Part shown: one piece after another, positions 3,113-63,722 of the stretch
Numbering within the stretch: the first letter of the stretch is position 1
Layout: each line of letters begins with the position of its first letter
Notes under the pieces: generated by a model
What the model was told of the DNA's origin: nothing
Database searches by the model: none
Seen by the model: only the letters and a program-made list of their open reading frames with translations
DNA from: Tomocerus qinae
Lineage: Eukaryota; Arthropoda; Collembola; Entomobryomorpha; Tomoceridae
Direction: 5' to 3'
NCBI GenBank assembly: GCA_020055645.1
Contig: CM034547.1
Coordinates: 4,402,001 to 4,466,000 of the forward strand
Length of the DNA stretch: 64,000 nt
Made by a program: the position numbers and the translations under genes

Positions 3113-3471
3113 AAATACATGCAATAAATAATGTAGCTATGTAATAAATATATGTGCCTGGCTTAATTAATATGGGTTGAATCAAGAAATAAATAAGTAA
3201 TAATAAAATTAAATACTGTATGATTAAGTAATGAACTTGAATAAACTTATGAAGCCACTTTAATAATCATAATAATGCATTATTGGGGGTCATGGACTGA
3301 ATGGACTCGAATGCAAAGACGGTATCCGGATAACTTGCTTGCATAAATTATTTCGTACCTTACGAGAATAAATAATGTTTTTTACAAATAGTATTTATTA
3401 ACTTTTTAATGTGGTATGATCTGCATCGCAGTACCATTAAGCTCTCAACACTAAATGTTATGACAGTTTCA

Positions 3472-4926: not shown

Positions 4927-6394
4927 TTTGTCTCACTTGTTTATATAAAAATACTACTACCAAAATTCAAAATACAGTCCAAACCAAAGTACCAATTGTG
5001 AAACTATAGTAGTTGGAGAAATAATGAAGAACAATTTTTCGAAAATAAAAAGGTGCCTTTTTGCTTAATGTACTGAATTCATCAGTTATATATTATATCT
5101 ATGACCGTCTGACCGTAATAAGGGTTACTTAATGAATGAATGAAAGACCACTAACCAGCACAACCCGAGTCTGTGGTACTAACAGACTAACACAACGCAT
5201 GAAGATAAGAATCATTATTGAGAAACTGAGTGCCAACGGTTTTCTTAATTAGAAAATTATATCATTATGCTTCCATAATATTATTATCACATTGATGAAC
5301 AACCTCTTCCTGATACTTTATGATTCCTTCTCCTCCCCGTCTTTGTAATCTATTTCATCAGTATCTTAATTTCTCCGTGACAAGAAATGGGAAACAGAAT
5401 TATAAATTTTTGAAAATAATGAACTCATTAAACTATTTACTAGGGAGCATGAAGTAGTACCTCGAAGCCAAAACATTTATCTTTCGGTATATTATAGTGT
5501 TTACTATATCCACAAGGATTTCTCAACGACAATAGGTGGTTGGCTGAAATCAATTTGAACCAGGGTAGAAAAAACTTTTTATTCTAGCCTCGCAAGCGGC
5601 CGTGTGTGGATAAGGCTCACATTACATTTACATTACTGGAATTTTGTATTACCTATTTAATTCTTTTGCAATAAAGATCAAGAAGGAGAGTAGGATTTAC
5701 CCTCCCAAAATACGTCAATATGATTATGCATCCCATCCCAACAGTACTATACGTCTACTGATATGTAACTCATTCACATTTACATTGTTATAAATACTTG
5801 TGACGAAATAGCTTCCAATGTTAAACTGGAATTGGTTGCTACTTTTCTAGTTAATAAAACAGGTCACAATAGACATTCGTTTCGCAACTGTATACTACAT
5901 TAGAATACAACTGTGAATGCAAATGAATATATAATTTAAAAAACACAAACGCATCACAAGTGACAGACGGCTATGTATAAAAAATTAAAACAAACCATGT
6001 AAGCACGTAACCAGGAATTTGACCAAGGGGGGCACACCAAAATATATTTGTAAAATTATACGAACATTTTTTGGATTTTTAACTTTTTTTGACAAAAAAT
6101 TCTTTTTCTGGAAGGGGGGCCGGGCCCTCCCCTGGATACGTGCTTGAAACCATGAGTACTAAACAGTATAATATCGTAAAACCAATACTACCAAATAGTA
6201 TGAATGAACAAATTATGTTTACGAGTTACTGTTTGGTTATCCAATTTAATTTTAGATGAGTATTGATTTACCGAATGAGTTCAACTTAAGAAATAATATC
6301 ATTTAATGCTTGATCGGTTTTAATTTCAATTGTTTATTAATTACTGTATGTTCGCCTTCTCTCTTTAAAATCCAAATCCTGTCATGGGTATATA
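4927..6394. other. Intergenic stretch with one MITE and a 3' UTR
   Basis: Apart from the small transposon at 6000-6146 and the presumed 3' UTR of the giant gene (minus-strand AATAAA at 6337-6332, about 58 nt past its stop), I recognise nothing here. Confidence 0.5.
6000..6146. mobile_element. hAT-like MITE, 147 bp
   Basis: The ends are inverted repeats (AAGCACGTAACCAGG at the left; the complement of CAAGCACGTATCCAGG at the right). The element is flanked by a perfect 8-bp direct repeat, AAACCATG, at 5992-5999 and 6147-6154. It has no coding capacity. Eight-bp duplications are typical of hAT transposons; family assignment rests on that and on similar small elements in the window. Confidence 0.8.
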
Positions 6395-9300
6395 CTATTT
6401 ACGTACTTTACTTTTAATGTAATCTAAGTTGTTACTGTAAAACATTTCAAATTTTTCTGTAATTTGTTTTTGTTCTTCTGGTTGGATACCATGCATTAAA
6501 AATTGAATGACAGCCATGAGGTGAACTCTGTCGTTGTAATTTATCTGTAAATCAATTTCGCACTCTGGGCAAATCTTCAAAGCTGTAAAATCCTGGAGCA
6601 ACTTGGTAAATCCTGTGTTTACACTCTTAAGGAGATTTCGAGAGAACCTGATCAGATGATTTCGATAGTGGCTGTGAGATTCCTGAAGAGCTCTCAGAGT
6701 GAAGTCAGCAAGAAACTTAACACTCCGAGAAACACGAGTTTGAATAGATGGATTTCTATTCTCAGAGATTATTACTGCATTTGAGGTCTTGTTCAACTCC
6801 TCCGCATAAACTTTAGTGAAAATGTTCAGTTCAAATGCTTGCGAGAATTGATCCAATTGACCTTTACCAAGTTTTGTCAGATTCCTACACAATTGAAAAA
6901 TAGCATTACATGTTAATTAATTTATAATTTAAAATTTTTATTGTTTGTAAATATTTCCCGATTTAGGACTAATGGCTCAACTCTGTAGAGGTTCTCAAAA
7001 TCAGTAACAAATTGTCGTGGTTAGAATTAATAGGATAGCAAAACAATTCAAGTAACTCCTTCAAAATGGCCGAATTGCTGTCCATCAAAACAAAAATTCA
7101 CAAACTACGTTTTTCTACCCACCAAAATCGACCCATAGTAAACCTATTAATGATTTTAAGCATTCCTCCAGGTTTATAACTAAGATATGCTAGCTCTCAA
7201 TCATGAATCATGAATGTAAATGTAACATGGGAAAGTTCTTACTGATATTCACTGGTGATAGGAATTCTTAAACGATTTCCGTGCAGTTCTAAGAATCCTA
7301 GTTTCATCAATTGCTTTATTTGTACTGTGTGCTCTTCCAAACAATGTGTCCTTAGTACTGTTGTGTAGAAATGAATAATTTTGTCCTCGGTTACATCATT
7401 CTCCAAGTCTGTGGAACTTATTTTGGAAAAGGGGCAATTACCCATGCCAAAGTAGATTTCAGATTCGTATTTCAGAGTGATATTGGGGTAAATTGGTTGG
7501 TATTGAGTTTTCCATCCTGGATGAATTATTACATCCGCTACTGAATCATTTATGGAAGCTGCAAGAAAAATTAAAAACTTTTTTAATGGATGGATGATTA
7601 ACAAGCTATTCTCATTATTTGAATAAAATCATTGTAATCAGTGCCGCAGCCAGGGGGTGGCCAGCCCCCCCCCCCGAAATCGAAGAAAAGAAAAGAATTT
7701 TTGCCATAAAATCCAAAAAATTTTCGCGCTTAAAATTTGTCGCCCCCCCTAATTTTTTTTGCCTGCGGCCCTGATTGTGACAAATCATTCTAATAAAGAA
7801 TAACCAACCATTCATATCATGTATGCTTCTTCCCAATGAAGTCGTGGCTGCTTCCATTTTTCGATCGGCAGGGTGAATGTATATACCATTATTTCCTTTT
7901 GCATCTGGTTTAAATGAGTATTTTTTATTTTCTTTGGTGGCTGAAATGATTCCATTAATACCAAGTGGCTCGTTGGTAACTTTTTTCACATCACTCAAGG
8001 GATATAAAATAGCCTGGGCTTGATTTTTTGTTTCCAATGCTTGTGTCAAAAGTTCTTCTCCGCTAGAAGGTGAAAATTCGATGAGATCCACATCTTTGAC
8101 CAAAATTCTTCCCGAAAGTTTTTTCGTTATAAATTCTATGTAAAGGTTAGCATTTTCACTTGTACTTGAAACAAAGATACTTGCTTTGTCTTCGCCAACG
8201 AAATATGTACCAGTTTTCTCTTCCAACGGCAAGGCATTAGATTGGTGTTCACTGGATTTTTCAATCATATGTCTTCCCATGTCAACATTTTCAGATTTCT
8301 GTTTCGCTGCTTCAAATGTGCCAAGATCTCCAGGAATTAGCGGTTTGAAAATAAATTCATTGTCCCTCTGTCCCACTGTTAGAGATCCTTGGATTTCTTC
8401 GTCGGCTTTGGAAGATTCATCAGCGAGGAAAGCTACATTGATAGTACCTTCTTCAGTCTTGTCAGAAATTAATATTTGTGGACGACCACCCTGTAGGCTG
8501 AAAATGGCTGCTTCCCCTTGCAATTTTGAAGGAGTAAATATCCCATGCACGGCTGTGTTTCCATTATCAAATTTAATAGGGTTCTTTGCTTTCAAATTTC
8601 CGGTAACTCCTGATTGTTGTATAAAAACAAATGAATTTTTTATAGGATTGCGGAAATAAGTACCAAATTGCTTGTCTTCAAGGTTGGTTTCTACACCTTT
8701 GCTCAACGATCTACCGCTTATAGTTTTATAATTACTTGGATATGTACTATCACGATGAGGAAATGGTACTCCAACGCAATAAATGATAAAACCAGAGATA
8801 CCAGCACTGCCTTCTATATACGATCCCCTCTGTGCTGCAGAGTCCATCTTGATAATGAATTCACCCTGTGTGTAAGAAATTTTTCCATGAACCCCAACTG
8901 GAAGATCATTGGTCATGGAAATTGGCATGAATGTAACTCCTACAGAATCACCAATTAGCTTTGATTTCAAAATATCCTCATCAATGGGAGTAAATTTTGC
9001 TAAGTTTGGGTTTTTCGCTGGTTCAAAATTTCCTTGATATGTGGTGTCAATATCTGGACCATCTAAAATAATTTCACCTGTCTTGCCAGTAGCAGGGATG
9101 AAAAGGTTCCCGCCCTTCGCTCCTTTGTAAAAACTTCCTTTGACTTTAACTTGTTCTTTTGTGTTAGCATTTGTAGACGGAACATTTTGAGTTAAACTAG
9201 GATCGTTCAAAACAAAATCTCCTTTACCACTGTACACAAAACATCCTTTCGGGGGGTTTGAATTCCACACCCCTACTCTACCTGGAGTATTTAAAATGAA

Positions 9301-12300
9301 TTGTAAAGATTTTCCAGATCCGGTGAATTTTCCGGAAATGCCAGGAGTTAACTGAACTTTTGAGGAATAGTAATCTGGAATATCAACATAGAATATACCC
9401 ACAGTGTTTTTTCTTGTGCTGATCATTGTGACGTCTTCTTCAGTATCTGGTTTATAAGCAAAAGCAATGCCATCTTTGTTAGGAGTCATAAAACCATGCG
9501 TAACTCTCTTTAGATACATAACTGATTTATCAAAAATAAATTTTCCAATTGTGCCAATGAAAGGGATAAATATTTCTGTGTTAAAAGACGTTTGCACGTA
9601 AACACCATGAACGGGGCCTTGCGGAAAGGAGAAAGATTGGCTACCGCTGCTGACGTCAACATCCGGAGGAGTCATTTGAGGAGCCACAGCTTGAGAAGAC
9701 TGCACATCTTCAGAATTTGAAATTTGATTATTCACCGATTCCTGTGTTGAAATATCCTGCTTTGTTTCAGAGAAAACCCAGGCAGAGTATTTAGAATCGT
9801 GATTCAGTGTACCATATATAACAGAATTATCGTTTCCTGTAAATGATCCATGTAAAATTTCTTGATGAAGCCAAATAGAGTCAGTGACTCCTAAAACATC
9901 CGGAATGAATATGGTCACACCACCTCTTATTAAGATTCCACCTATCCTCTTATTCGGTTTGGCACTAGCAGTAAAAAATCCAAGTGTTCCGTCGGTGTCA
10001 GGAACGAAATACGGTTCAAAAAAAGAACTTTCGGAACGTATTAAATACCCCTGAATAGGGTTTAAAATATTTTCATTCGGATTTTCATATGTTCCTGGCA
10101 CAGGATTTCCGACCTCCATTAAAGGTTCCGTTTCCCCTGGGCTATCTGGGATAAAAAGCTTTGGAAGCTTTGCATCACGAACAGTCAAAAATCCATATAT
10201 AGGTACAAGGTTTACGTTATTTGACATAGGTAAAAATCGACCAGTAGATTTCTTAGGTGTCGGAGAAAATGTAGGCAATGGTGACCCTGGTTGCGTAGGT
10301 GGAGCTACTTGACCTTTCTTTAGACTTTGGAATGGACCAGGATTACCTTTTTGTGGCTCAAAGGTACCTTGTTCAGGTCGATTTGGTTGTGTGAGGTCAG
10401 TGACATCTTTTGGATTATTTGGGACAAATGTGTCACCTTTTACTAGCGTCCCTGGAATTTTCTTGTTTGGATTTGAATCTGGCACAAAGAATCCAGGACT
10501 TCCATCTGTCTCTGGAATAAAATATGGTGGACTAGATGGACTATCAGACGGAACTAAATATCCACGACTTGGGTTAGGACTACTTCCGCTAGGATCATCT
10601 GGATCTGGAGCCGGTTGATATGTTCCTGGGACAGGATTTCCTTTCTGCATTAACGGTGTAGTTTGTTTTGGACTGTCTGGAATAAATCGTTTAGGTTGTT
10701 GTGGATCATCACTAACCAAAGTGCCTGGAATACTGCTGAAAGGATTTGAAGTGGGCACAAATACACCAGTAGATTTCTTAGGTGTCGGAGAAAATGTAGG
10801 CAATGGTGACCCTGGTTGCGTAGGTGGAACTACTTGACCTTTCTTTGGACTTTGGAATGGACCAGGATTACCTTTTTGTGGCTCAAAGGTACCTTGTTCA
10901 GGTCGATTTGGTTGTGTGAGGTCAGTGACATCTTTTGGATTATTTGGGACAAATGTGTCACCTTTTACTAGCGTCCCTGGAATTTTCTTGTTTGGATTTG
11001 AATCTGGCACAAAGAATCCAGGACTTCCATCTGTCTCTGGAATAAAATATGGTGGACTAGATGGACTATCAGACGGAACTAAATATCCACGACTTGGGTT
11101 AGGACTACTTCCGCTAGGATCATCTGGATCTGGAGCCGGTTGATATGTTCCTGGGACAGGATTTCCTTTCTGCATTAACGGTGTAGTTTGTTTTGGACTG
11201 TCTGGAATAAATCGTTTAGGTTGTTGTGGATCATCACTAACCAAAGTGCCTGGAATACTGCTGAAAGGATTTGAAGTGGGCACAAATACACCAGTAGATT
11301 TCTTAGGTGTCGGAGAAAATGTAGGCAATGGTGACCCTGGTTGCGTAGGTGGAGCTACTTGACCTTTCTTTGGACTTTGGAATGGACCAGGATTACCTTT
11401 TTGTGGCTCAAAGGTACCTTGTTCAGGTCGATTTGGTTGTGTGAGGTCAGTGACATCTTTTGGATTATTTGGGACAAATGTGTCACCTTTTACTAGCGTC
11501 CCTGGAATTTTCTTGTTTGGATTTGAATCTGGCACAAAGAATCCAGGACTTCCATCTGTCTCTGGAATAAAATATGGTGGACTAGATGGACTATCAGACG
11601 GAACTAAATATCCACGACTTGGGTTAGGACTACTTCCGCTAGGATCATCTGGATCTGGAGCCGGTTGATATGTTCCTGGGACAGGATTTCCTTTCTGCAT
11701 TAACGGTGTAGTTTGTTTTGGACTGTCTGGAATAAATCGTTTAGGTTGTTGTGGATCATCACTAACCAAAGTGCCTGGAATACTGCTGAAAGGATTTGAA
11801 GTGGGCACAAATACACCAGTAGATTTCTTAGGTGTCGGAGAAAATGTAGGCAATGGTGACCCTGGTTGCGTAGGTGGAGCTACTTGACCTTTCTTTGGAC
11901 TTTGGAATGGACCAGGATTACCTTTTTGTGGCTCAAAGGTACCTTGTTCAGGTCGATTTGGTTGTGTGAGGTCAGTGACATCTTTTGGATTATTTGGGAC
12001 AAATGTGTCACCTTTTACTAGCGTCCCTGGAATTTTCTTGTTTGGATTTGAATCTGGCACAAAGAATCCAGGACTTCCATCTGTCTCTGGAATAAAATAT
12101 GGTGGACTAGATGGACTATCAGACGGAACTAAATATCCACGACTTGGGTTAGGACTACTTCCGCTAGGATCATCTGGATCTGGAGCCGGTTGATATGTTC
12201 CTGGGACAGGATTTCCTTTCTGCATTAACGGTGTAGTTTGTTTTGGACTGTCTGGAATAAATCGTTTAGGTTGTTGTGGATCATCACTAACCAAAGTGCC

Positions 12301-15300
12301 TGGAATACTGCTGAAAGGATTTGAAGTGGGCACAAATACACCAGTAGATTTCTTAGGTGTCGGAGAAAATGTAGGCAATGGTGACCCTGGTTGCGTAGGT
12401 GGAGCTACTTGACCTTTCTTTGGACTTTGGAATGGACCAGGATTACCTTTTTGTGGCTCAAAGGTACCTTGTTCAGGTCGATTTGGTTGTGTGAGGTCAG
12501 TGACATCTTTTGGATTATTTGGGACAAATGTGTCACCTTTTACTAGCGTCCCTGGAATTTTCTTGTTTGGATTTGAATCTGGCACAAAGAATCCAGGACT
12601 TCCATCTGTCTCTGGAATAAAATATGGTGGACTAGATGGACTATCAGACGGAACTAAATATCCACGACTTGGGTTAGGACTACTTCCGCTAGGATCATCT
12701 GGATCTGGAGCCGGTTGATATGTTCCTGGGACAGGATTTCCTTTCTGCATTAACGGTGTAGTTTGTTTTGGACTGTCTGGAATAAATCGTTTAGGTTGTT
12801 GTGGATCATCACTAACCAAAGTGCCTGGAATACTGCTGAAAGGATTTGAAGTGGGCACAAATACACCAGTAGATTTCTTAGGTGTCGGAGAAAATGTAGG
12901 CAATGGTGACCCTGGTTGCGTAGGTGGAGCTACTTGACCTTTCTTTGGACTTTGGAATGGACCAGGATTACCTTTTTGTGGCTCAAAGGTACCTTGTTCA
13001 GGTCGATTTGGTTGTGTGAGGTCAGTGACATCTTTTGGATTATTTGGGACAAATGTGTCACCTTTTACTAGCGTCCCTGGAATTTTCTTGTTTGGATTTG
13101 AATCTGGCACAAAGAATCCAGGACTTCCATCTGTCTCTGGAATAAAATATGGTGGACTAGATGGACTATCAGACGGAACTAAATATCCACGACTTGGGTT
13201 AGGACTACTTCCGCTAGGATCATCTGGATCTGGAGCCGGTTGATATGTTCCTGGGACAGGATTTCCTTTCTGCATTAACGGTGTAGTTTGTTTTGGACTG
13301 TCTGGAATAAATCGTTTAGGTTGTTGTGGATCATCACTAACCAAAGTGCCTGGAATACTGCTGAAAGGATTTGAAGTGGGCACAAATACACCAGTAGATT
13401 TCTTAGGTGTCGGAGAAAATGTAGGCAATGGTGACCCTGGTTGCGTAGGTGGAGCTACTTGACCTTTCTTTGGACTTTGGAATGGACCAGGATTACCTTT
13501 TTGTGGCTCAAAGGTACCTTGTTCAGGTCGATTTGGTTGTGTGAGGTCAGTGACATCTTTTGGATTATTTGGGACAAATGTGTCACCTTTTACTAGCGTC
13601 CCTGGAATTTTCTTGTTTGGATTTGAATCTGGCACAAAGAATCCAGGACTTCCATCTGTCTCTGGAATAAAATATGGTGGACTAGATGGACTATCAGACG
13701 GAACTAAATATCCACGACTTGGGTTAGGACTACTTCCGCTAGGATCATCTGGATCTGGAGCCGGTTGATATGTTCCTGGGACAGGATTTCCTTTCTGCAT
13801 TAACGGTGTAGTTTGTTTTGGACTGTCTGGAATAAATCGTTTAGGTTGTTGTGGATCATCACTAACCAAAGTGCCTGGAATACTGCTGAAAGGATTTGAA
13901 GTGGGCACAAATACACCAGTAGATTTCTTAGGTGTCGGAGAAAATGTAGGCAATGGTGACCCTGGTTGCGTAGGTGGAGCTACTTGACCTTTCTTTGGAC
14001 TTTGGAATGGACCAGGATTACCTTTTTGTGGCTCAAAGGTACCTTGTTCAGGTCGATTTGGTTGTGTGAGGTCAGTGACATCTTTTGGATTATTTGGGAC
14101 AAATGTGTCACCTTTTACTAGCGTCCCTGGAATTTTCTTGTTTGGATTTGAATCTGGCACAAAGAATCCAGGACTTCCATCTGTCTCTGGAATAAAATAT
14201 GGTGGACTAGATGGACTATCAGACGGAACTAAATATCCACGACTTGGGTTAGGACTACTTCCGCTAGGATCATCTGGATCTGGAGCCGGTTGATATGTTC
14301 CTGGGACAGGATTTCCTTTCTGCATTAACGGTGTAGTTTGTTTTGGACTGTCTGGAATAAATCGTTTAGGTTGTTGTGGATCATCACTAACCAAAGTGCC
14401 TGGAATACTGCTGAAAGGATTTGAAGTGGGCACAAATACACCAGTAGATTTCTTAGGTGTCGGAGAAAATGTAGGCAATGGTGACCCTGGTTGCGTAGGT
14501 GGAGCTACTTGACCTTTCTTTGGACTTTGGAATGGACCAGGATTACCTTTTTGTGGCTCAAAGGTACCTTGTTCAGGTCGATTTGGTTGTGTGAGGTCAG
14601 TGACATCTTTTGGATTATTTGGGACAAATGTGTCACCTTTTACTAGCGTCCCTGGAATTTTCTTGTTTGGATTTGAATCTGGCACAAAGAATCCAGGACT
14701 TCCATCTGTCTCTGGAATAAAATATGGTGGACTAGATGGACTATCAGACGGAACTAAATATCCACGACTTGGGTTAGGACTACTTCCGCTAGGATCATCT
14801 GGATCTGGAGCCGGTTGATATGTTCCTGGGACAGGATTTCCTTTCTGCATTAACGGTGTAGTTTGTTTTGGACTGTCTGGAATAAATCGTTTAGGTTGTT
14901 GTGGATCATCACTAACCAAAGTGCCTGGAATACTGCTGAAAGGATTTGAAGTGGGCACAAATACACCAGTAGATTTCTTAGGTGTCGGAGAAAATGTAGG
15001 CAATGGTGACCCTGGTTGCGTAGGTGGAGCTACTTGACCTTTCTTTGGACTTTGGAATGGACCAGGATTACCTTTTTGTGGCTCAAAGGTACCTTGTTCA
15101 GGTCGATTTGGTTGTGTGAGGTCAGTGACATCTTTTGGATTATTTGGGACAAATGTGTCACCTTTTACTAGCGTCCCTGGAATTTTCTTGTTTGGATTTG
15201 AATCTGGCACAAAGAATCCAGGACTTCCATCTGTCTCTGGAATAAAATATGGTGGACTAGATGGACTATCAGACGGAACTAAATATCCACGACTTGGGTT

Positions 15301-18300
15301 AGGACTACTTCCGCTAGGATCATCTGGATCTGGAGCCGGTTGATATGTTCCTGGGACAGGATTTCCTTTCTGCATTAACGGTGTAGTTTGTTTTGGACTG
15401 TCTGGAATAAATCGTTTAGGTTGTTGTGGATCATCACTAACCAAAGTGCCTGGAATACTGCTGAAAGGATTTGAAGTGGGCACAAATACACCAGTAGATT
15501 TCTTAGGTGTCGGAGAAAATGTAGGCAATGGTGACCCTGGTTGCGTAGGTGGAGCTACTTGACCTTTCTTTGGACTTTGGAATGGACCAGGATTACCTTT
15601 TTGTGGCTCAAAGGTACCTTGTTCAGGTCGATTTGGTTGTGTGAGGTCAGTGACATCTTTTGGATTATTTGGGACAAATGTGTCACCTTTTACTAGCGTC
15701 CCTGGAATTTTCTTGTTTGGATTTGAATCTGGCACAAAGAATCCAGGACTTCCATCTGTCTCTGGAATAAAATATGGTGGACTAGATGGACTATCAGACG
15801 GAACTAAATATCCACGACTTGGGTTAGGACTACTTCCGCTAGGATCATCTGGATCTGGAGCCGGTTGATATGTTCCTGGGACAGGATTTCCTTTCTGCAT
15901 TAACGGTGTAGTTTGTTTTGGACTGTCTGGAATAAATCGTTTAGGTTGTTGTGGATCATCACTAACCAAAGTGCCTGGAATACTGCTGAAAGGATTTGAA
16001 GTGGGCACAAATACACCAGTAGATTTCTTAGGTGTCGGAGAAAATGTAGGCAATGGTGACCCTGGTTGCGTAGGTGGAGCTACTTGACCTTTCTTTGGAC
16101 TTTGGAATGGACCAGGATTACCTTTTTGTGGCTCAAAGGTACCTTGTTCAGGTCGATTTGGTTGTGTGAGGTCAGTGACATCTTTTGGATTATTTGGGAC
16201 AAATGTGTCACCTTTTACTAGCGTCCCTGGAATTTTCTTGTTTGGATTTGAATCTGGCACAAAGAATCCAGGACTTCCATCTGTCTCTGGAATAAAATAT
16301 GGTGGACTAGATGGACTATCAGACGGAACTAAATATCCACGACTTGGGTTAGGACTACTTCCGCTAGGATCATCTGGATCTGGAGCCGGTTGATATGTTC
16401 CTGGGACAGGATTTCCTTTCTGCATTAACGGTGTAGTTTGTTTTGGACTGTCTGGAATAAATCGTTTAGGTTGTTGTGGATCATCACTAACCAAAGTGCC
16501 TGGAATACTGCTGAAAGGATTTGAAGTGGGCACAAATACACCAGTAGATTTCTTAGGTGTCGGAGAAAATGTAGGCAATGGTGACCCTGGTTGCGTAGGT
16601 GGAGCTACTTGACCTTTCTTTGGACTTTGGAATGGACCAGGATTACCTTTTTGTGGCTCAAAGGTACCTTGTTCAGGTCGATTTGGTTGTGTGAGGTCAG
16701 TGACATCTTTTGGATTATTTGGGACAAATGTGTCACCTTTTACTAGCGTCCCTGGAATTTTCTTGTTTGGATTTGAATCTGGCACAAAGAATCCAGGACT
16801 TCCATCTGTCTCTGGAATAAAATATGGTGGACTAGATGGACTATCAGACGGAACTAAATATCCACGACTTGGGTTAGGACTACTTCCGCTAGGATCATCT
16901 GGATCTGGAGCCGGTTGATATGTTCCTGGGACAGGATTTCCTTTCTGCATTAACGGTGTAGTTTGTTTTGGACTGTCTGGAATAAATCGTTTAGGTTGTT
17001 GTGGATCATCACTAACCAAAGTGCCTGGAATACTGCTGAAAGGATTTGAAGTGGGCACAAATACACCAGTAGATTTCTTAGGTGTCGGAGAAAATGTAGG
17101 CAATGGTGACCCTGGTTGCGTAGGTGGAGCTACTTGACCTTTCTTTGGACTTTGGAATGGACCAGGATTACCTTTTTGTGGCTCAAAGGTACCTTGTTCA
17201 GGTCGATTTGGTTGTGTGAGGTCAGTGACATCTTTTGGATTATTTGGGACAAATGTGTCACCTTTTACTAGCGTCCCTGGAATTTTCTTGTTTGGATTTG
17301 AATCTGGCACAAAGAATCCAGGACTTCCATCTGTCTCTGGAATAAAATATGGTGGACTAGATGGACTATCAGACGGAACTAAATATCCACGACTTGGGTT
17401 AGGACTACTTCCGCTAGGATCATCTGGATCTGGAGCCGGTTGATATGTTCCTGGGACAGGATTTCCTTTCTGCATTAACGGTGTAGTTTGTTTTGGACTG
17501 TCTGGAATAAATCGTTTAGGTTGTTGTGGATCATCACTAACCAAAGTGCCTGGAATACTGCTGAAAGGATTTGAAGTGGGCACAAATACACCAGTAGATT
17601 TCTTAGGTGTCGGAGAAAATGTAGGCAATGGTGACCCTGGTTGCGTAGGTGGAGCTACTTGACCTTTCTTTGGACTTTGGAATGGACCAGGATTACCTTT
17701 TTGTGGCTCAAAGGTACCTTGTTCAGGTCGATTTGGTTGTGTGAGGTCAGTGACATCTTTTGGATTATTTGGGACAAATGTGTCACCTTTTACTAGCGTC
17801 CCTGGAATTTTCTTGTTTGGATTTGAATCTGGCACAAAGAATCCAGGACTTCCATCTGTCTCTGGAATAAAATATGGTGGACTAGATGGACTATCAGACG
17901 GAACTAAATATCCACGACTTGGGTTAGGACTACTTCCGCTAGGATCATCTGGATCTGGAGCCGGTTGATATGTTCCTGGGACAGGATTTCCTTTCTGCAT
18001 TAACGGTGTAGTTTGTTTTGGACTGTCTGGAATAAATCGTTTAGGTTGTTGTGGATCATCACTAACCAAAGTGCCTGGAATACTGCTGAAAGGATTTGAA
18101 GTGGGCACAAATACACCAGTAGATTTCTTAGGTGTCGGAGAAAATGTAGGCAATGGTGACCCTGGTTGCGTAGGTGGAGCTACTTGACCTTTCTTTGGAC
18201 TTTGGAATGGACCAGGATTACCTTTTTGTGGCTCAAAGGTACCTTGTTCAGGTCGATTTGGTTGTGTGAGGTCAGTGACATCTTTTGGATTATTTGGGAC

Positions 18301-24300: not shown

Positions 24301-27300
24301 TAACGGTGTAGTTTGTTTTGGACTGTCTGGAATAAATCGTTTAGGTTGTTGTGGATCATCACTAACCAAAGTGCCTGGAATACTGCTGAAAGGATTTGAA
24401 GTGGGCACAAATACACCAGTAGATTTCTTAGGTGTCGGAGAAAATGTAGGCAATGGTGACCCTGGTTGCGTAGGTGGAGCTACTTGACCTTTCTTTGGAC
24501 TTTGGAATGGACCAGGATTACCTTTTTGTGGCTCAAAGGTACCTTGTTCAGGTCGATTTGGTTGTGTGAGGTCAGTGACATCTTTTGGATTATTTGGGAC
24601 AAATGTGTCACCTTTTACTAGCGTCCCTGGAATTTTCTTGTTTGGATTTGAATCTGGCACAAAGAATCCAGGACTTCCATCTGTCTCTGGAATAAAATAT
24701 GGTGGACTAGATGGACTATCAGACGGAACTAAATATCCACGACTTGGGTTAGGACTACTTCCGCTAGGATCATCTGGATCTGGAGCCGGTTGATATGTTC
24801 CTGGGACAGGATTTCCTTTCTGCATTAACGGTGTAGTTTGTTTTGGACTGTCTGGAATAAATCGTTTAGGTTGTTGTGGATCATCACTAACCAAAGTGCC
24901 TGGAATACTGCTGAAAGGATTTGAAGTGGGCACAAATACACCAGTAGATTTCTTAGGTGTCGGAGAAAATGTAGGCAATGGTGACCCTGGTTGCGTAGGT
25001 GGAGCTACTTGACCTTTCTTTGGACTTTGGAATGGACCAGGATTACCTTTTTGTGGCTCAAAGGTACCTTGTTCAGGTCGATTTGGTTGTGTGAGGTCAG
25101 TGACATCTTTTGGATTATTTGGGACAAATGTGTCACCTTTTACTAGCGTCCCTGGAATTTTCTTGTTTGGATTTGAATCTGGCACAAAGAATCCAGGACT
25201 TCCATCTGTCTCTGGAATAAAATATGGTGGACTAGATGGACTATCAGACGGAACTAAATATCCACGACTTGGGTTAGGACTACTTCCGCTAGGATCATCT
25301 GGATCTGGAGCCGGTTGATATGTTCCTGGGACAGGATTTCCTTTCTGCATTAACGGTGTAGTTTGTTTTGGACTGTCTGGAATAAATCGTTTAGGTTGTT
25401 GTGGATCATCACTAACCAAAGTGCCTGGAATACTGCTGAAAGGATTTGAAGTGGGCACAAATACACCAGTAGATTTCTTAGGTGTCGGAGAAAATGTAGG
25501 CAATGGTGACCCTGGTTGCGTAGGTGGAGCTACTTGACCTTTCTTTGGACTTTGGAATGGACCAGGATTACCTTTTTGTGGCTCAAAGGTACCTTGTTCA
25601 GGTCGATTTGGTTGTGTGAGGTCAGTGACATCTTTTGGATTATTTGGGACAAATGTGTCACCTTTTACTAGCGTCCCTGGAATTTTCTTGTTTGGATTTG
25701 AATCTGGCACAAAGAATCCAGGACTTCCATCTGTCTCTGGAATAAAATATGGTGGACTAGATGGACTATCAGACGGAACTAAATATCCACGACTTGGGTT
25801 AGGACTACTTCCGCTAGGATCATCTGGATCTGGAGCCGGTTGATATGTTCCTGGGACAGGATTTCCTTTCTGCATTAACGGTGTAGTTTGTTTTGGACTG
25901 TCTGGAATAAATCGTTTAGGTTGTTGTGGATCATCACTAACCAAAGTGCCTGGAATACTGCTGAAAGGATTTGAAGTGGGCACAAATACACCAGTAGATT
26001 TCTTAGGTGTCGGAGAAAATGTAGGCAATGGTGACCCTGGTTGCGTAGGTGGAGCTACTTGACCTTTCTTTGGACTTTGGAATGGACCAGGATTACCTTT
26101 TTGTGGCTCAAAGGTACCTTGTTCAGGTCGATTTGGTTGTGTGAGGTCAGTGACATCTTTTGGATTATTTGGGACAAATGTGTCACCTTTTACTAGCGTC
26201 CCTGGAATTTTCTTGTTTGGATTTGAATCTGGCACAAAGAATCCAGGACTTCCATCTGTCTCTGGAATAAAATATGGTGGACTAGATGGACTATCAGACG
26301 GAACTAAATATCCACGACTTGGGTTAGGACTACTTCCGCTAGGATCATCTGGATCTGGAGCCGGTTGATATGTTCCTGGGACAGGATTTCCTTTCTGCAT
26401 TAACGGTGTAGTTTGTTTTGGACTGTCTGGAATAAATCGTTTAGGTTGTTGTGGATCATCACTAACCAAAGTGCCTGGAATACTGCTGAAAGGATTTGAA
26501 GTGGGCACAAATACACCAGTAGATTTCTTAGGTGTCGGAGAAAATGTAGGCAATGGTGACCCTGGTTGCGTAGGTGGAGCTACTTGACCTTTCTTTGGAC
26601 TTTGGAATGGACCAGGATTACCTTTTTGTGGCTCAAAGGTACCTTGTTCAGGTCGATTTGGTTGTGTGAGGTCAGTGACATCTTTTGGATTATTTGGGAC
26701 AAATGTGTCACCTTTTACTAGCGTCCCTGGAATTTTCTTGTTTGGATTTGAATCTGGCACAAAGAATCCAGGACTTCCATCTGTCTCTGGAATAAAATAT
26801 GGTGGACTAGATGGACTATCAGACGGAACTAAATATCCACGACTTGGGTTAGGACTACTTCCGCTAGGATCATCTGGATCTGGAGCCGGTTGATATGTTC
26901 CTGGGACAGGATTTCCTTTCTGCATTAACGGTGTAGTTTGTTTTGGACTGTCTGGAATAAATCGTTTAGGTTGTTGTGGATCATCACTAACCAAAGTGCC
27001 TGGAATACTGCTGAAAGGATTTGAAGTGGGCACAAATACACCAGTAGATTTCTTAGGTGTCGGAGAAAATGTAGGCAATGGTGACCCTGGTTGCGTAGGT
27101 GGAGCTACTTGACCTTTCTTTGGACTTTGGAATGGACCAGGATTACCTTTTTGTGGCTCAAAGGTACCTTGTTCAGGTCGATTTGGTTGTGTGAGGTCAG
27201 TGACATCTTTTGGATTATTTGAGACAAATGTGTCACCTTTTACTAGCGTCCCTGGAATTTTCTTGTTTGGATTTGAATCTGGCACAAAGAATCCAGGACT

Positions 27301-30300
27301 TCCATCTGTCTCTGGAATAAAATATGGTGGACTAGATGGACTATCAGACGGAACTAAATATCCACGACTTGGGTTAGGACTACTTCCGCTAGGATCATCT
27401 GGATCTGGAGCCGGTTGATATGTTCCTGGGACAGGATTTCCTTTCTGCATTAACGGTGTAGTTTGTTTTGGACTGTCTGGAATAAATCGTTTAGGTTGTT
27501 GTGGATCATCACTAACCAAAGTGCCTGGAATACTGCTGAAAGGATTTGAAGTGGGCACAAATACACCAGTAGATTTCTTAGGTGTCGGAGAAAATGTAGG
27601 CAATGGTGACCCTGGTTGCGTAGGTGGAGCTACTTGACCTTTCTTTGGACTTTGGAATGGACCAGGATTACCTTTTTGTGGCTCAAAGGTACCTTGTTCA
27701 GGTCGATTTGGTTGTGTGAGGTCAGTGACATCTTTTGGATTATTTGGGACAAATGTGTCACCTTTTACTAGCGTCCCTGGAATTTTCTTGTTTGGATTTG
27801 AATCTGGCACAAAGAATCCAGGACTTCCATCTGTCTCTGGAATAAAATATGGTGGACTAGATGGACTATCAGACGGAACTAAATATCCACGACTTGGGTT
27901 AGGACTACTTCCGCTAGGATCATCTGGATCTGGAGCCGGTTGATATGTTCCTGGGACAGGATTTCCTTTCTGCATTAACGGTGTAGTTTGTTTTGGACTG
28001 TCTGGAATAAATCGTTTAGGTTGTTGTGGATCATCACTAACCAAAGTGCCTGGAATACTGCTGAAAGGATTTGAAGTGGGCACAAATACACCAGTAGATT
28101 TCTTAGGTGTCGGAGAAAATGTAGGCAATGGTGACCCTGGTTGCGTAGGTGGAGCTACTTGACCTTTCTTTGGACTTTGGAATGGACCAGGATTACCTTT
28201 TTGTGGCTCAAAGGTACCTTGTTCAGGTCGATTTGGTTGTGTGAGGTCAGTGACATCTTTTGGATTATTTGGGACAAATGTGTCACCTTTTACTAGCGTC
28301 CCTGGAATTTTCTTGTTTGGATTTGAATCTGGCACAAAGAATCCAGGACTTCCATCTGTCTCTGGAATAAAATATGGTGGACTAGATGGACTATCAGACG
28401 GAACTAAATATCCACGACTTGGGTTAGGACTACTTCCGCTAGGATCATCTGGATCTGGAGCCGGTTGATATGTTCCTGGGACAGGATTTCCTTTCTGCAT
28501 TAACGGTGTAGTTTGTTTTGGACTGTCTGGAATAAATCGTTTAGGTTGTTGTGGATCATCACTAACCAAAGTGCCTGGAATACTGCTGAAAGGATTTGAA
28601 GTGGGCACAAATACACCAGTAGATTTCTTAGGTGTCGGAGAAAATGTAGGCAATGGTGACCCTGGTTGCGTAGGTGGAGCTACTTGACCTTTCTTTGGAC
28701 TTTGGAATGGACCAGGATTACCTTTTTGTGGCTCAAAGGTACCTTGTTCAGGTCGATTTGGTTGTGTGAGGTCAGTGACATCTTTTGGATTATTTGAGAC
28801 AAATGTGTCACCTTTTACTAGCGTCCCTGGAATTTTCTTGTTTGGATTTGAATCTGGCACAAAGAATCCAGGACTTCCATCTGTCTCTGGAATAAAATAT
28901 GGTGGACTAGATGGACTATCAGACGGAACTAAATATCCACGACTTGGGTTAGGACTACTTCCGCTAGGATCATCTGGATCTGGAGCCGGTTGATATGTTC
29001 CTGGGACAGGATTTCCTTTCTGCATTAACGGTGTAGTTTGTTTTGGACTGTCTGGAATAAATCGTTTAGGTTGTTGTGGATCATCACTAACCAAAGTGCC
29101 TGGAATACTGCTGAAAGGATTTGAAGTGGGCACAAATACACCAGTAGATTTCTTAGGTGTCGGAGAAAATGTAGGCAATGGTGACCCTGGTTGCGTAGGT
29201 GGAGCTACTTGACCTTTCTTTGGACTTTGGAATGGACCAGGATTACCTTTTTGTGGCTCAAAGGTACCTTGTTCAGGTCGATTTGGTTGTGTGAGGTCAG
29301 TGACATCTTTTGGATTATTTGGGACAAATGTGTCACCTTTTACTAGCGTCCCTGGAATTTTCTTGTTTGGATTTGAATCTGGCACAAAGAATCCAGGACT
29401 TCCATCTGTCTCTGGAATAAAATATGGTGGACTAGATGGACTATCAGACGGAACTAAATATCCACGACTTGGGTTAGGACTACTTCCGCTAGGATCATCT
29501 GGATCTGGAGCCGGTTGATATGTTCCTGGGACAGGATTTCCTTTCTGCATTAACGGTGTAGTTTGTTTTGGACTGTCTGGAATAAATCGTTTAGGTTGTT
29601 GTGGATCATCACTAACCAAAGTGCCTGGAATACTGCTGAAAGGATTTGAAGTGGGCACAAATACACCAGTAGATTTCTTAGGTGTCGGAGAAAATGTAGG
29701 CAATGGTGACCCTGGTTGCGTAGGTGGAGCTACTTGACCTTTCTTTGGACTTTGGAATGGACCAGGATTACCTTTTTGTGGCTCAAAGGTACCTTGTTCA
29801 GGTCGATTTGGTTGTGTGAGGTCAGTGACATCTTTTGGATTATTTGGGACAAATGTGTCACCTTTTACTAGCGTCCCTGGAATTTTCTTGTTTGGATTTG
29901 AATCTGGCACAAAGAATCCAGGACTTCCATCTGTCTCTGGAATAAAATATGGTGGACTAGATGGACTATCAGACGGAACTAAATATCCACGACTTGGGTT
30001 AGGACTACTTCCGCTAGGATCATCTGGATCTGGAGCCGGTTGATATGTTCCTGGGACAGGATTTCCTTTCTGCATTAACGGTGTAGTTTGTTTTGGACTG
30101 TCTGGAATAAATCGTTTAGGTTGTTGTGGATCATCACTAACCAAAGTGCCTGGAATACTGCTGAAAGGATTTGAAGTGGGCACAAATACACCAGTAGATT
30201 TCTTAGGTGTCGGAGAAAATGTAGGCAATGGTGACCCTGGTTGCGTAGGTGGAGCTACTTGACCTTTCTTTGGACTTTGGAATGGACCAGGATTACCTTT

Positions 30301-33300
30301 TTGTGGCTCAAAGGTACCTTGTTCAGGTCGATTTGGTTGTGTGAGGTCAGTGACATCTTTTGGATTATTTGGGACAAATGTGTCACCTTTTACTAGCGTC
30401 CCTGGAATTTTCTTGTTTGGATTTGAATCTGGCACAAAGAATCCAGGACTTCCATCTGTCTCTGGAATAAAATATGGTGGACTAGATGGACTATCAGACG
30501 GAACTAAATATCCACGACTTGGGTTAGGACTACTTCCGCTAGGATCATCTGGATCTGGAGCCGGTTGATATGTTCCTGGGACAGGATTTCCTTTCTGCAT
30601 TAACGGTGTAGTTTGTTTTGGACTGTCTGGAATAAATCGTTTAGGTTGTTGTGGATCATCACTAACCAAAGTGCCTGGAATACTGCTGAAAGGATTTGAA
30701 GTGGGCACAAATACACCAGTAGATTTCTTAGGTGTCGGAGAAAATGTAGGCAATGGTGACCCTGGTTGCGTAGGTGGAGCTACTTGACCTTTCTTTGGAC
30801 TTTGGAATGGACCAGGATTACCTTTTTGTGGCTCAAAGGTACCTTGTTCAGGTCGATTTGGTTGTGTGAGGTCAGTGACATCTTTTGGATTATTTGGGAC
30901 AAATGTGTCACCTTTTACTAGCGTCCCTGGAATTTTCTTGTTTGGATTTGAATCTGGCACAAAGAATCCAGGACTTCCATCTGTCTCTGGAATAAAATAT
31001 GGTGGACTAGATGGACTATCAGACGGAACTAAATATCCACGACTTGGGTTAGGACTACTTCCGCTAGGATCATCTGGATCTGGTTGAAATGTTCCTGGAA
31101 CAATGTCGCCTTTTTTCATTAGTGGAATTGTTTGTTTCATGCTTTCTGGAATGAAGGAGTTAGGTTGCTTTGTGTTGCTTGTATCCAAAGTTCCTGGAAT
31201 TGTATTGTAAGGGTTGTTTTCTGGAACAAAATTTCCTTTTACTTTATTGCTGGGGATTGAAAATTGTGGTGGGCCGCCTTCCGGAGTTTTTGGTGGAACT
31301 AGTTGACCAAATTTTGCACTTTGAAATGGGCCAGGATTATTTTTTTCTGGTGTGAATACTCCAGGTTCTGGTTGATCTTCCTCTGTGAGACTGGCTATCT
31401 CTGTAGGATTATTTGGTACGAACGTGTTAGTTTTTGTCATTATACCAGGAATTTTATTATTTGGTTTTGAATCGGGTACAAACGTTCCGGGGCTTCCCTC
31501 AGATTCTGGGATGAAGTATGGTAAGCCGCCTGGTTTTTCAGATGGTATTAAATATCCTCGTGTAGGGAGCTTTAGTCCACTGGTGTCACCTGGAGCAGGT
31601 TCGTAAGTCCCTGTGGCCTTGTTTTTTTCTTGTAATAATGCATTTATTTGTTTAGTGTTCACAGGGGAAAATGTTTTTGGTTTATTTTGTGTAGCTGGTA
31701 ATAACTTTCCTGGAACTGTGTTGTATGGATTTATATCTGGAATAAAAGCACCTTGTCTGGGTTTTGGAATTGACGGTGGTCTTGAGAGGGTAGGTTTTAT
31801 TGTTGGTTTGGGTTCACTTGAAAGTGGTTTAGGCGTTGTATTATCGTAATTATCTTTAGGCTTATATGTGGGCTTTGTTTTACGATTTCCAGCATCGTCT
31901 GTATCTGGTGTTATGAGGGACGCTAAGGTAGGTGAAGTAGACGGTTCTAGTTTAACATTATCTATGTCATTTTCTGCAGGATCGTCAGGTTTCAATTTTC
32001 CATGAGCGATTGCACTGGACAGTTTGTCAATTATTTCCTTCGGAAAATCGGGATAAAATGATATTGGAAAGGTTTCAGGATTTTCGTAATATCCGTGTAT
32101 TTCTTTTGGGGGTGTATCGTTGGTTATAAATGTACCTTGTTTCCCATTTTGGTCTTCTATTTCAAATTTTGGCTGTTCACCTGGTAATCCCGGTGAATAT
32201 ACTCCGTGAACTGGATAACCCGGAATAAAGTCATAAGTGTTAAACACCCCGCGAGTAGGTTTGTAAGGTGCACCTATGCCACTAAATTTGTCCTTGTCCA
32301 TAAAAAATTGTCCTTCCTTGCCATTAGTTGGCGGAATTATTACGCCTGGATAACTGGTATTTTTGTCGTCATCTGGAACAAAGTATCCTCTTTCTCCGAT
32401 GTAGTCCGGTACCCAAACTGGTGCCTTCCCTTCCGATGTTGGCAACATTCTTCCATGAACTCTTTTGGCTTGTTCTCTGTCATCGGTGAAGTTTCCGGAA
32501 AGAGATTTATCCGTAAAGCTTTTGTAAAACGCATCGGGCTCGTCTGGATGAAAGTTTGTTGGTAGCTCTCCAGTAGTCAAAATTCCATGATGGGAATTTG
32601 TTGGATCAGAATCTGGGGAGAAGTTACCAGATATAGAGCCATCATCCTCAGGTATGAAAGTTGCCGGTTCACCTTTGGTTCCAGGAGCAATGCTTACTTT
32701 TATGGAAGGAGAGATTTTATCTGAAGGTATGAATTGTCCTTTTGACGTCTGAAAAAATTCAGCTTCATTTTCAGGATCGGGAATGAATTGTCCTGAGCCA
32801 CCCTTTGTTGGTTTTACATAGTATCCATTCACTGGAGGATTTTTTTTATTTTCGGGATAAAATTTTCCAGGAAGTGTTGCCTTGTCGCGTAAAAACTTAC
32901 AAGGTTCGTTTGAACCCAAAAATATCATCGTTCCACGTTGTTTAGGGGCATTGTCAGAATTAGATTTTTCGGGTTTAAATACTCCTGGCATTGATCTTCT
33001 TAGCTTTACTGAATCCTCGGGGTAAAATAAATTGGGCTGGCCATAACCGGTGGTCATATTTGTTAGAATACCATGGAATGGCATTTTATCCATGTCAACA
33101 GGTATAAAAAGGCCAACTGAGGCTGCTGTCTTGGAAAAGAAGTCATACCATGATGATGCTTTGTTACGAAGGATGCTTCCCTGGATGTTGCCTTTTCTAT
33201 CAATTTTTACATCTGTTTCTCTTGCCATTTCTCTTCCCGTTTGCTTTGAAGGTTTAAAAATTCCTTGGACGATTTTAGTGTACATTGGATCTTCAATAGG

Positions 33301-35817
33301 AATAAGTTTTCCAACACCGTCATTAGCTCCTGGAACGTATAAGCATTCAAAAGAACTTGTTTCTTTGTCCTCTGGATAAAATCTACCGTACACTGCACGT
33401 TTCTCAGCAACAATAGTTAAAGGATTCTCTGGCCGACCGGAAATGACAACTCCTCGTACTATTTCGCTATTTGCCTCTTCGGGAGAGCTTTCGCCTGGCA
33501 ATTTTTGTTTCTTCCCTGCACCCTGCTTTTGAAATTGTCCTTTGACGTACTTGTTTGGCCACATTTCCCTCAACACTTCTTGGGAAACAGTTGGTACGAA
33601 GCTGTTTGCCTCTCCATTTGACCCTGGAATGTAATATGCGGGAACAGGAGGATATTTATCTTCATCTGGTTGAAATGTTCCATAATATCCCGCAGTGTCC
33701 AAAATAAACATATGTGGCCATCCTGGAACACTCGGCACCAAAGTCCCGCCACCATATACTGTCTCTTTTGAAGAATGGCTGTAGGCAGAGAAAGAGTCGA
33801 TTTGGAAGGAGCCGTGAATAGCTTGATCTTTTATTTGTGGTAGTTGTACGAAAGCTGAATTTTCGAGGATTAAACTGTGAGGACTTCCGGGAGGCGAAGG
33901 CAAGAGAAAGCCATGAATACGTGGCAAGCCGTTGTCTGGAAAAAACGTTCCTGTAATTATCAGATACAATATATTAAACTATTACTTTTATATTCATAAA
34001 CTCGTTTAGCCTTAGACAATAGATTTGATTAGACGAATAAGTCAGATTATTCTGCTGTATTAAATCATGCAGAAAATGTGACCTTAGTATGAATACATCA
34101 GGGCGTCAGCGAGTAAGGGGAGTACCTTTTGGAACACTAAATGACTATAAAGTGGCAGAAAATGAACTTCTTATTATTACGGATGATTTAGGAGAAATTA
34201 CCTGGACTTCCCAAACTATTGGTGATGAAAAGAGCAGGTGTGCCCGAGAATCCCGGAGGCATAAGAACTCCAATGACTTTGGTCTGAAGTGGGTCGTTGT
34301 CCAAAATGAAAGATCCTGTGGTGCCTCTGTCTGCAGGTAGCAGTGGGCCGAAAATATTGTAGCCACCATCAGACGCAAATACCGCTGGTCTTCCAACAGG
34401 CCCAGGTGTGAGCATGCCGTGAATCGGTCGATAATTTATGTCATCTGGGATGTACATTCCTATTACAAATAAAACATGTATTATAAGTCATATTGTTAAG
34501 TTGTAATTGTAGAATTTGAAGAAAATGTAGATTTGGATTTCTAATAATTATTATGGAAGTACCAAAGAAGTCATTTCCTGTTTGAACTAAGAAAGGTGGG
34601 TACATTACAATAGGCGTAAGTTGTACTGGCATGTAAAGCGGATAGAGTGGGGCTATAGGAATCGGGTGAATGACTTGGGTGACTCTGACAACTGTCGTCA
34701 CATATTTTCCTCTTCGATCTTTCGTGGTAATCTTCTGTTCCGTCGTTGGCGAGGTGTAGGTCCCGTCGCCTAAGTCTGGACTCATCGGTTGTGGTAAATA
34801 ACTCGGCTGCATTGGCAGAAATCGGGAGCTGGCTCTGAAACTCCGTCCCGCAATATCTGAACTTTCCAGATTAAGGTCATCGTAAAAGCTAGGGATTTGT
34901 TGAAAGTCATGAGGAGTAGGGGAGTTGACATTTTCTTGCATCGAGCCAACATCAGCAATGGCTTTTGATGATGTGGCAGCTGCATCATTATTCGCAATGG
35001 CTTCGTTGTAGGAAATGAGTTGGAAGGAAGAGGCAGGGAACGCGGAGTCATTGAACCCGCATGACAGGAGGACGGTAGAAGAACAAGTTTTCCAGTAAGA
35101 AGGCCGATGGCTCCTCCTGTCCTCCCAGGTGTCCCATTCTATCGAGTGCTTCCCAACGCCAATATCAAATTTGTTTCCGTCGTCTTCACTGGCACTCCTG
35201 AAACAGAAATAAAAATGTAACCAACACGGAAAAAAGATCGCCCTTAGTTAAGTTAGGTTAGGTTAGGGAGTTTCTCCATTATTCTTTTTCGTTTTCTTGT
35301 GTAAGTGCCAAATAATTTTATTTTTTTCTAAATCCTAACGGGGCAACAATAATACTTACCGAATATATGCTAAGGCGGCGAAATATGCATTTTTAATCGA
35401 ATGTTTTGCGTTTTTCTTCAGGACGACGTAGATGGTTCTGTTCGACCCGGTGTGAGTACCCGTGACAAAATGGGAAGGAAGAACAACAACATCTTCGTTC
35501 CCTTCAGAAGCTGCCCCTTCGTAAATGACTGTGGCCTCGTCATCGGGGAGCTTGTACGAGGCCCTGGAGTTTATTCGGTCAATTGATTGAAGGAGGATCG
35601 GGTCGTTCTCGAATTGACTCACAGGAAGATTCATCGCCTGTGACTTCACCGCCTCCAGGAACGGGTCCGTCGTCTTCTCATCATCTAATTCTCGTTTTGA
35701 CGAGAATTTGTCTTCTAGCCCTTTTCCTTTTTCTGAAAAATTGTGTTTGGAGGGCCTAGCAAACACAATAAAATAAATTACGCTGTATATAAATATTCTA
35801 ATTAGCCACAAACTCAT
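6395..35817 (-). CDS. Giant secreted proline-rich tandem-repeat protein (9,432 aa)
   Basis: Six exons on the minus strand: 35817-35360, 35197-34563, 34459-34202, 33950-7809, 7558-7243, 6884-6395. They sum to 28,299 nt, a multiple of three, and every junction phase agrees. Residues 1-21 form a hydrophobic signal peptide (MSLWLIRIFIYSVIYFIVFA), so the product is secreted. Exons 1-2 encode a non-repetitive N-terminal region; from the end of exon 2 the protein is a series of ~44-residue motifs of the form G-x-[FY]-x-P ... [IH]-[PH]-G-x-L ... F-x-P. In exon 4, 40 nearly identical 175-residue units follow each other. The unit has about 23 percent proline and no Cys, Trp or His. Exons 5-6 encode a non-repetitive, partly helical C-terminal domain (about 270 aa) with KICPEC and GNCPF cysteines. 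Estimated mass is about 1 MDa. I recognise no family; an extracellular matrix, cuticle, silk-like or adhesive role is inference. The frame reads on past the exon 4 donor at 7808 into an intronic MITE; that tail is not likely protein. Confidence 0.82.
7639..7773. mobile_element. hAT-like MITE, 135 bp, in intron 4 of the giant gene
   Basis: It starts CAGTGCCGCAGCCA and ends with the complement of CAGGGCCGCAGGCA. Flanks are ATTGTAAT (7631-7638) and ATTGTGAC (7774-7781), a decayed 8-bp target duplication (6 of 8 identical). It contains poly-C and poly-G runs. If the giant exon were read past its donor, this MITE would supply an artificial glycine-rich tail. Confidence 0.7.
9850..10240 (-). repeat. 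Diverged repeat unit at the C-terminal edge of the array
   Basis: In the giant protein, this segment still follows the unit order (GRFLP, FIPDSP, NPVPGTY, GYLI, PYFVPDTDG, GFF, GGIL) but differs from the consensus at many residues, while the neighbouring array units are virtually identical to each other. It is an old edge copy that has escaped homogenisation. Confidence 0.75.
10241..31083 (-). repeat. Tandem array of about 39.7 units of 525 bp inside one exon
   Basis: The period is exactly 525 bp (175 codons), so copy-number change keeps the reading frame. Each unit splits into four sub-repeats of 44, 43, 42 and 46 residues starting at PGTYQP, PGFFVP, GTFEP and GVFVP. The differences I found among copies are few: P to L at 10322, A to V at 10829, a synonymous change at 22714, and the same P to S change at 21972, 23547, 27222 and 28797. 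Such uniformity points to recent expansion or ongoing homogenisation by unequal exchange or gene conversion. The true copy number may differ from the assembled one. Confidence 0.95.
31084..31615 (-). repeat. Diverged repeat unit at the N-terminal edge of the array
   Basis: One full unit's worth of sequence (GTYEPAPG, RGYLIPSE, GTFVPDSKP, GVFTPEKN, GNFVPENNP) is recognisable but clearly diverged from the array consensus. Together with the C-terminal edge copy, it brackets the homogeneous core. Confidence 0.8.
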
Positions 35818-63381: not shown

Positions 63382-63722
63382 ACCCTTTTCACCCTACAAA
63401 TCTAACCTATTTAATCATAATCTAACTTAATCTAAGGATGGCCTCTTAGTCTTGCCGGGTGAATGAGGGTGTGTGGCTCATCGGGACTCTAGTACTATAT
63501 ACTATAATAGGATAATATTGCGTATACGAAACTAAAAGCTTGCAGATATTGAAAACGTTAATTGACTTTTGGTCTTATGCCTGTCGCATCCTGCCTGGGT
63601 ATATACTTGTACCGCCTCTAGTTGTAATGGCGACCTTATACGATTACGAGCTTGACGTGCTTACAAACTTTGAGTCGTTGAGTATACTGACTTTTGTTTT
63701 TAGAAATTGGAAGAATCAAAAA

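Follow-up and report, generated by a model that had tools for sequence, protein, structure and literature searches.

What kind of gene holds more than 26 kb of uninterrupted coding frame, and is so long a frame really coding? The window (the whole stretch of springtail DNA analysed here, 64,000 nt from Tomocerus qinae) carries on its minus strand, at 7615..33978, a frame of 8,787 codons that extends from stop to stop. Between a presumed splice acceptor at 33950 and a donor at 7809 this frame runs for 8,713 codons with no stop, and the remaining two minus-strand frames have 285 and 848 stops over the same span. An earlier reading of the sequence alone had proposed a single coding exon of about 26.1 kb here, in a gene for a secreted protein of about 9,400 aa with three upstream and two downstream exons in phase. 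Our analysis agrees on each of these points: the six-exon model has phases that agree throughout and a CDS of 28,299 bp, i.e. 9,432 aa plus the stop codon, with a predicted protein mass of about 1.008 MDa. The features are as follows.

35360..35817, minus strand: exon 1, hydrophobic signal-like N terminus and start of the conserved N domain (...ALAYIR); donor GTAAGT.
34563..35197, minus strand: exon 2, second part of the N domain (IEWDTWEDR...C...C) and a linker.
34202..34459, minus strand: exon 3, first GxFxP motif copies; symmetric phase 1-1, starting in a split glycine codon.
7809..33950, minus strand: exon 4, the giant exon of 26,142 bp; phase 1-1, starting in a split glycine codon.
30859..33950, minus strand: 5' part of exon 4, unique or diverged, 1,030 open codons, with motif copies that have diverged and, at the 3' end, an incomplete array unit.
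10384..30858, minus strand: tandem array of 39 complete 525-bp (175-aa) units, with 6 substitutions in total against the consensus.
7809..10383, minus strand: 3' part of exon 4, a partial unit, diverged motifs and a linker; 858 open codons.
7243..7558, minus strand: exon 5, first part of the conserved C domain (GWKTQ ... FxGxGNCP ... VLRTxC).
6395..6884, minus strand: exon 6, second part of the C domain and the stop codon.

An AATAAA lies 57 bases past the stop codon of exon 6. Two alternative in-phase donors for exon 4 were noted, one at 7887 (ATG/GTATAT) that shortens the exon by 78 bp and one at 7782 (TTT/GTCACA) that lengthens it by 27 bp; the donor at 7809 is preferred because it keeps a GRS motif, seen by eye near the junction in some relatives. 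The exon had also been suggested to rank among the longest known in animals. On the figures quoted from PMC6553539, the spider-glue gene AgSp1 has 42,270 bp of coding sequence in two exons of similar size and AgSp2 has 20,526 bp in one short and one large exon, so that exon 4 is longer than the exons of either; its rank among all animal exons is only partly checked, our literature search having found no survey of exon lengths that settles it.

The unique flanks of the array within exon 4 give a test of openness that is independent of unit copying. They run for 1,030 and 858 codons without a stop, whereas the longest open run in 500 base shuffles of each flank was at most 192 and 154 codons, respectively. 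The 525-bp unit taken alone makes a weaker case (175 open codons versus at most 174 in 500 shuffles), and the openness of the array counts as one instance because the array is mostly one 175-codon unit copied. Differences among the diverged units beside the array fall mostly at silent sites. Pairwise comparison of four units, one from the array and three diverged ones beside it, gave omega 0.31-0.43 in five of six pairs (the sixth is saturated in dS), some pairs having array-derived stretches in common; in one unit, the half that is fully diverged gave 0.21. Purifying selection acts on the diverged motif units, and the giant frame is therefore very probably translated.

The array itself is strikingly uniform. 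Its unit is exactly 525 bp long, and the 39 full copies occupy 20,475 bp of the 26,142-bp exon, at C2:4412384-4432858. The substitutions are P163S in copies 4, 7, 14 and 17, a silent change in copy 16 and A27V in copy 39; copies 18-38 (21 units, 11 kb) are letter-identical, and a query unit is matched at 100% by 34 of the 39 copies and at 99% by the other five. The P163S pattern recurs at a ten-unit shift, as a block duplication of ten units would leave. Both ends of the array pass in frame into unique coding sequence, and a genome search, in which 64 candidates were scored, found no stray unit copies on other contigs. On the opposite strand, 39 open frames of 101 aa recur at 525-base spacing (window 10313-30568, plus strand); these follow from the copying of the unit and therefore give no evidence of a gene.

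A motif of about 44 residues running through nearly the whole chain had been described from the sequence, and it is real. The module (G-x-[FY]-x-P, IPG-x-L, F-x-P) occurs four times per 175-residue unit, and diverged copies lie on both sides of the array as well as in exon 3. An example unit peptide of the array is GYLVPSDSPSSPPYFIPETDGSPGFFVPDSNPNK. The array is rich in proline (P 22.8, S 10.9, G 8.6, T 8.6, A 1.1%; S+T 19.5%) and has no cysteine. A structure model of the unit, built from the four window units only, reached a mean pLDDT of 67 (the other four models, 62 to 45), and its residues 44-132, i.e. two modules, form six strands and one helix. This, the only usable model, suggests that the unit folds compactly into beta structure and is neither disordered nor a poly-alanine fibre, and the five models disagree in confidence; a pairing of modules into one small barrel is conjecture. 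Fold searches, in which PilZ-like and split beta-barrel folds were considered, gave no significant match, and Pfam had no match for the unit or for the scanned parts of the exon 4 flanks, which are most of them.

The ends of the protein place the gene in a family. We searched the same genome (334,443,149 bases in 115 contigs, with contig C1 of 140.5 Mb and contig C2 of 71.8 Mb) with both ends. The N part (exons 1-2) matched 27 stretches at E<=10; sorted by eye, they fall into 17 loci, counting that of the window gene, and a stretch at E<=0.001 is present in 15 of them, the remaining two having been confirmed by profile. The C part (exons 5-6) matched 39 stretches at E<=0.001, which we grouped into 22 loci, again counting its own, of which some are broken copies; genome searches with exon 5 and with two relatives gave 19, 20 and 8 stretches. 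Gene readings are limited to 20 fetched stretches, comprising 15 relatives with both ends and broken copies. The end domains are split by introns at conserved places: in all 16 genes compared, the window gene included, a GT stands in the same phase in the N domain after Y-x-x-[IVL]-[RK], and, judged by eye, 17 of 19 rows have an AG a short way upstream of the exon 6 domain (the two without it are fragments). The exon 5 domain has an invariant tryptophan and two invariant cysteines in 16 members. A hydrophobic stretch follows a methionine in 15 of 16 N-exon frames, the 16th being cut off by the edge of its fetched stretch; the best 12-residue mean hydropathy is 1.65 to 3.18 (weakest in L038, at 1.65), on a crude score with no threshold or control that is not a signal-peptide predictor. 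The signal peptide claimed at the start of the window gene corresponds to a hydrophobic, signal-like N terminus, and the product is probably secreted.

Some loci deserve separate mention: (i) Fragmentary copies of the C domain, probably pseudogenes, lie beside an intact one at C1:9515000-9530500 (L039-L040). (ii) Two members at C1:68319500-68331500 and C1:68733401-68743400 (L030-L032), about 0.41 Mb apart, have end domains that are near-identical by eye, and the pair looks as if from a recent duplication.

The libraries searched gave no credible match to the end domains. Pfam gave no match for exons 1-2 at E<=10 and two unrelated matches below cutoff for the C part; when members were scanned singly (16, 15 and 16 of them), 9, 4 and 2 stray families appeared, each in one or two members and none of them a spidroin model, the best at E 0.00077 and still below its cutoff. 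Profile searches against PDB chains with three end-domain profiles gave nothing below E 0.4, and of 98 pattern matches to exon 6 in a scan of prokaryote genomes, none was confirmed as a relative. No published description of such a family was found in a literature search that had most subscription journals outside its reach. The domain search that had been proposed for the unit and for the N and C ends thus gave no credible match in Pfam or PDB, and the sequence-only reading was sound in recognising no mucin, titin or silk: none is credibly matched among Pfam models or PDB sequences. Its further suggestion, a new class of giant extracellular structural protein, needs changing: the gene does not stand alone, its N end having 17 matching loci in this genome and its C end 22, with the gene itself counted in each. 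By sequence comparison, the end domains and the module appear new relative to Pfam and PDB, in a layout that is already known.

Between these ends the cores differ. By eye, in the part of the fetched genes that was compared, they have little in common beyond a repetitive or low-complexity character, and some members have short cores. The relative at C1:113852000-113860500 (L033) has, at 1559-6498 of its stretch, a silk-like core rich in Gly, Asn and Ala between the family end domains, with repeats GGNAxSNAxA, GPGGAPNN and also GGGNN; three stretches of it have G 33 N 20 A 13, G 23 A 26 and G 22 A 22%. A springtail antifreeze protein (PMC10235112) was considered for this core and set aside by eye, as glycine does not stand at every third place. 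The relative at C2:1.40 Mb (L034) has both the module (profile E about 1e-8) and a stretch rich in Gly, Ala, Ser and Asn, and the pair at C1:68.32 and 68.74 Mb appears similar by eye, but the module profile detects it only weakly (E 0.07 and 0.46).

A further relative, at C1:3.39-3.43 Mb, bears nine related motif-bearing exons in succession, six of them near-identical and five of them 489 bp between the sites found. An in-phase acceptor is present for 9 of 9 and an in-phase donor for 7 of 9; the split codon is glycine in seven and valine in two, and omega is 0.03-0.44 in 36 pairs. The N and C domains of this locus (L025-L029, C1:3386400-3432399) stand about 44 kb apart around the nine exons, and retroelement-like sequence was seen by eye between them (L026 6666 to L027 3662). 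Since the motif exons are in tandem at C1:3.39 Mb and the array of the window gene lies within one exon, cores in this family lengthen by two routes, the copying of whole exons and copying inside an exon. The module also occurs at C1:77616500-77620900 (L048, profile E 0.003) and C1:15272000-15276500 (L049, 6e-11), in two frames that resemble each other (859 and 934 aa or more), are rich in a GxWxP/HGxLxP/FxPD version of it and end in a similar cysteine-containing tail; no family end domains were found there within the fetched 4.4-4.5 kb.

Several known systems share parts of this organization. Spidroins, especially AcSp1 and AgSp1/AgSp2, likewise have conserved ends round a repetitive core, form a multigene family, and combine very long exons with strong homogenisation of long units. 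The AcSp1 of Argiope argentata, in the data quoted from PMC3933166, consists of 20 repeats, of which the first 19 measure 204 aa each, at 98.7% average nucleotide identity; compared with those data, the window array has more units and is more uniform. Both the conserved ends with a core that differs between paralogues (the cores judged by eye in part of the fetched genes) and the homogenisation of long repeats at the DNA level (6 substitutions in 39 x 525 bp) are found here. The differences are that the unit is proline-rich and alanine-poor, that the end domains are split by introns, and that no sequence homology to spidroin N and C domains was detected in Pfam or PDB. Both libraries include spidroin end domains. 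The best reading of these comparisons is a spidroin-like layout with no detected spidroin homology.

The heavy-chain fibroin genes of Lepidoptera and caddisflies have one or more small first exons followed by a giant repetitive exon. The exon layout of the window gene resembles theirs; the composition differs, and the sequences were compared via Pfam and PDB only. The Gly/Ala/Ser-rich crystalline repeats of these fibroins are lacking in the array (G 8.6, A 1.1, S 10.9%), which has little alanine and no more than a moderate glycine content by the standard of classical fibre silks; the L033 core, unlike the array, is rich in Gly, Ala and Asn. This glycine-rich core, part of a predicted secreted product, resembles the repetitive or low-complexity cores of the silk-like structural proteins, a loose class (PMC4944945); the class is descriptive and membership needs evidence of a material. 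Mucins such as MUC16 also have a very long coding exon, and are marked by Ser/Thr-dominated O-glycosylation domains together with domains of the VWD, C8 or SEA type. The array has the long exon and the presence of P, S and T in common with MUC16-type mucins, but its proline (22.8%) exceeds S+T (19.5%), and Pfam detected no mucin domain in the ends, the unit or most of the exon flanks. Nor did Pfam find the Ig/Fn3 arrays of a titin-like protein in the unit or the scanned flanks.

On balance, we think that the window gene probably encodes a secreted structural (matrix, fibre or glue-like) protein, from a multigene family with conserved ends and a fast-evolving core. By analogy with spidroins, storage and assembly would be governed by the conserved N and C domains on either side of the repetitive core, and the core itself would determine the properties of the material. 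In the window gene, the core would be the module of about 44 residues, four to a unit, which unequal crossing-over would have multiplied to 39 copies and kept uniform, giving the 26-kb exon; the frame would survive such multiplication because the unit is a multiple of three and has no stop. What counts against a structural role is that Pfam, PDB and the fold searches tied neither sequence nor structure to any known structural protein. The composition of the array, unlike that of classical fibre silks, and the compact beta fold suggested by the model also weigh against it. Since cores are short in some members, the ends may serve a purpose by themselves, and one may suppose instead that the family is non-structural, with the ends as the working part (in binding, immunity, gut or saliva) and the cores as freely varying spacers. 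The conservation of the ends, with the invariant residues of exon 5, and the wide variation of the cores down to short ones would fit such a family; we nevertheless hold it to be unlikely, given that the motif itself is under purifying selection and is reused at C1:77.6 Mb and C1:15.3 Mb, where the 4.4-4.5 kb fetched gave no end-domain hit. More improbable still is an open frame whose array is skipped or split by cryptic splicing, leaving no protein of megadalton size. The donor at 7809 (GTTGGT) does look weak and has two further in-phase GT sites for company, but the unit is under purifying selection, none of its 39 copies has acquired a stop, and all 16 genes compared keep the splice position within the N domain.

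A different doubt concerns the size of the protein and leaves its gene real. The length could be partly a product of assembly, copies having been gained or lost and polishing having erased real differences between units, and we give this appreciable weight while thinking it the lesser possibility. In its favour are the identity over 21 successive units, with only 6 of 20,475 bases off the consensus, and the ten-unit shift of P163S, which is also expected from a mis-assembly loop; another springtail assembly was made from PacBio CLR reads with a NextPolish step (PMC10432511). Against it stand the absence of stray unit copies on other contigs among the 64 scored candidates, the in-frame unique coding sequence on both sides of the array, and the many synonymous differences retained by the duplicated exons at C1:3.39 Mb, because of which repeats cannot have been erased everywhere in the assembly. 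The count of 39 depends on the assembly and is not secure, since reads shorter than the identical run cannot count units.

A bolder version of the structural reading may be put forward tentatively: a non-insect hexapod would have evolved a silk-type family of its own, independent of spidroins and insect fibroins and with new end domains, whose largest member, of about one megadalton, would be a chain of about 80 small beta-barrels, each made of two 44-residue modules, all from a single 26-kb exon; other members would have glycine-rich silk-like cores, and the same ends would serve several materials. If the structural reading is right, the family would add a case of the silk-gene layout that is apparently independent, and in it both routes of core lengthening occur together. 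One could then ask what in silk genes is dictated by function and what is owed to ancestry, and materials research would gain new end domains along with a proline-rich module. The coding array is also a test case for methods of assembly and annotation.

Bacterial origin or contamination was considered through a search for bacterial small-subunit rRNA: five of 1,584 first-look candidates were scored, and these five, all of about 1.82 kb, lie on C1 and C2 as host genes would, so that the search leaves room for a bacterial contig. The rest of the window carries other genes. An alternative oxidase gene of at least two exons lies 3 kb upstream (38805-40789, plus strand), with a Pfam E of 1e-76 for its second exon; alternative oxidase is not known from insects. 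Farther along are frames matching a cytochrome P450 (45349-45870, plus strand) and a gustatory receptor of the trehalose-receptor type (50251-50751, minus strand), and one weakly matching a glyoxalase-like protein (63516-63998, plus strand).
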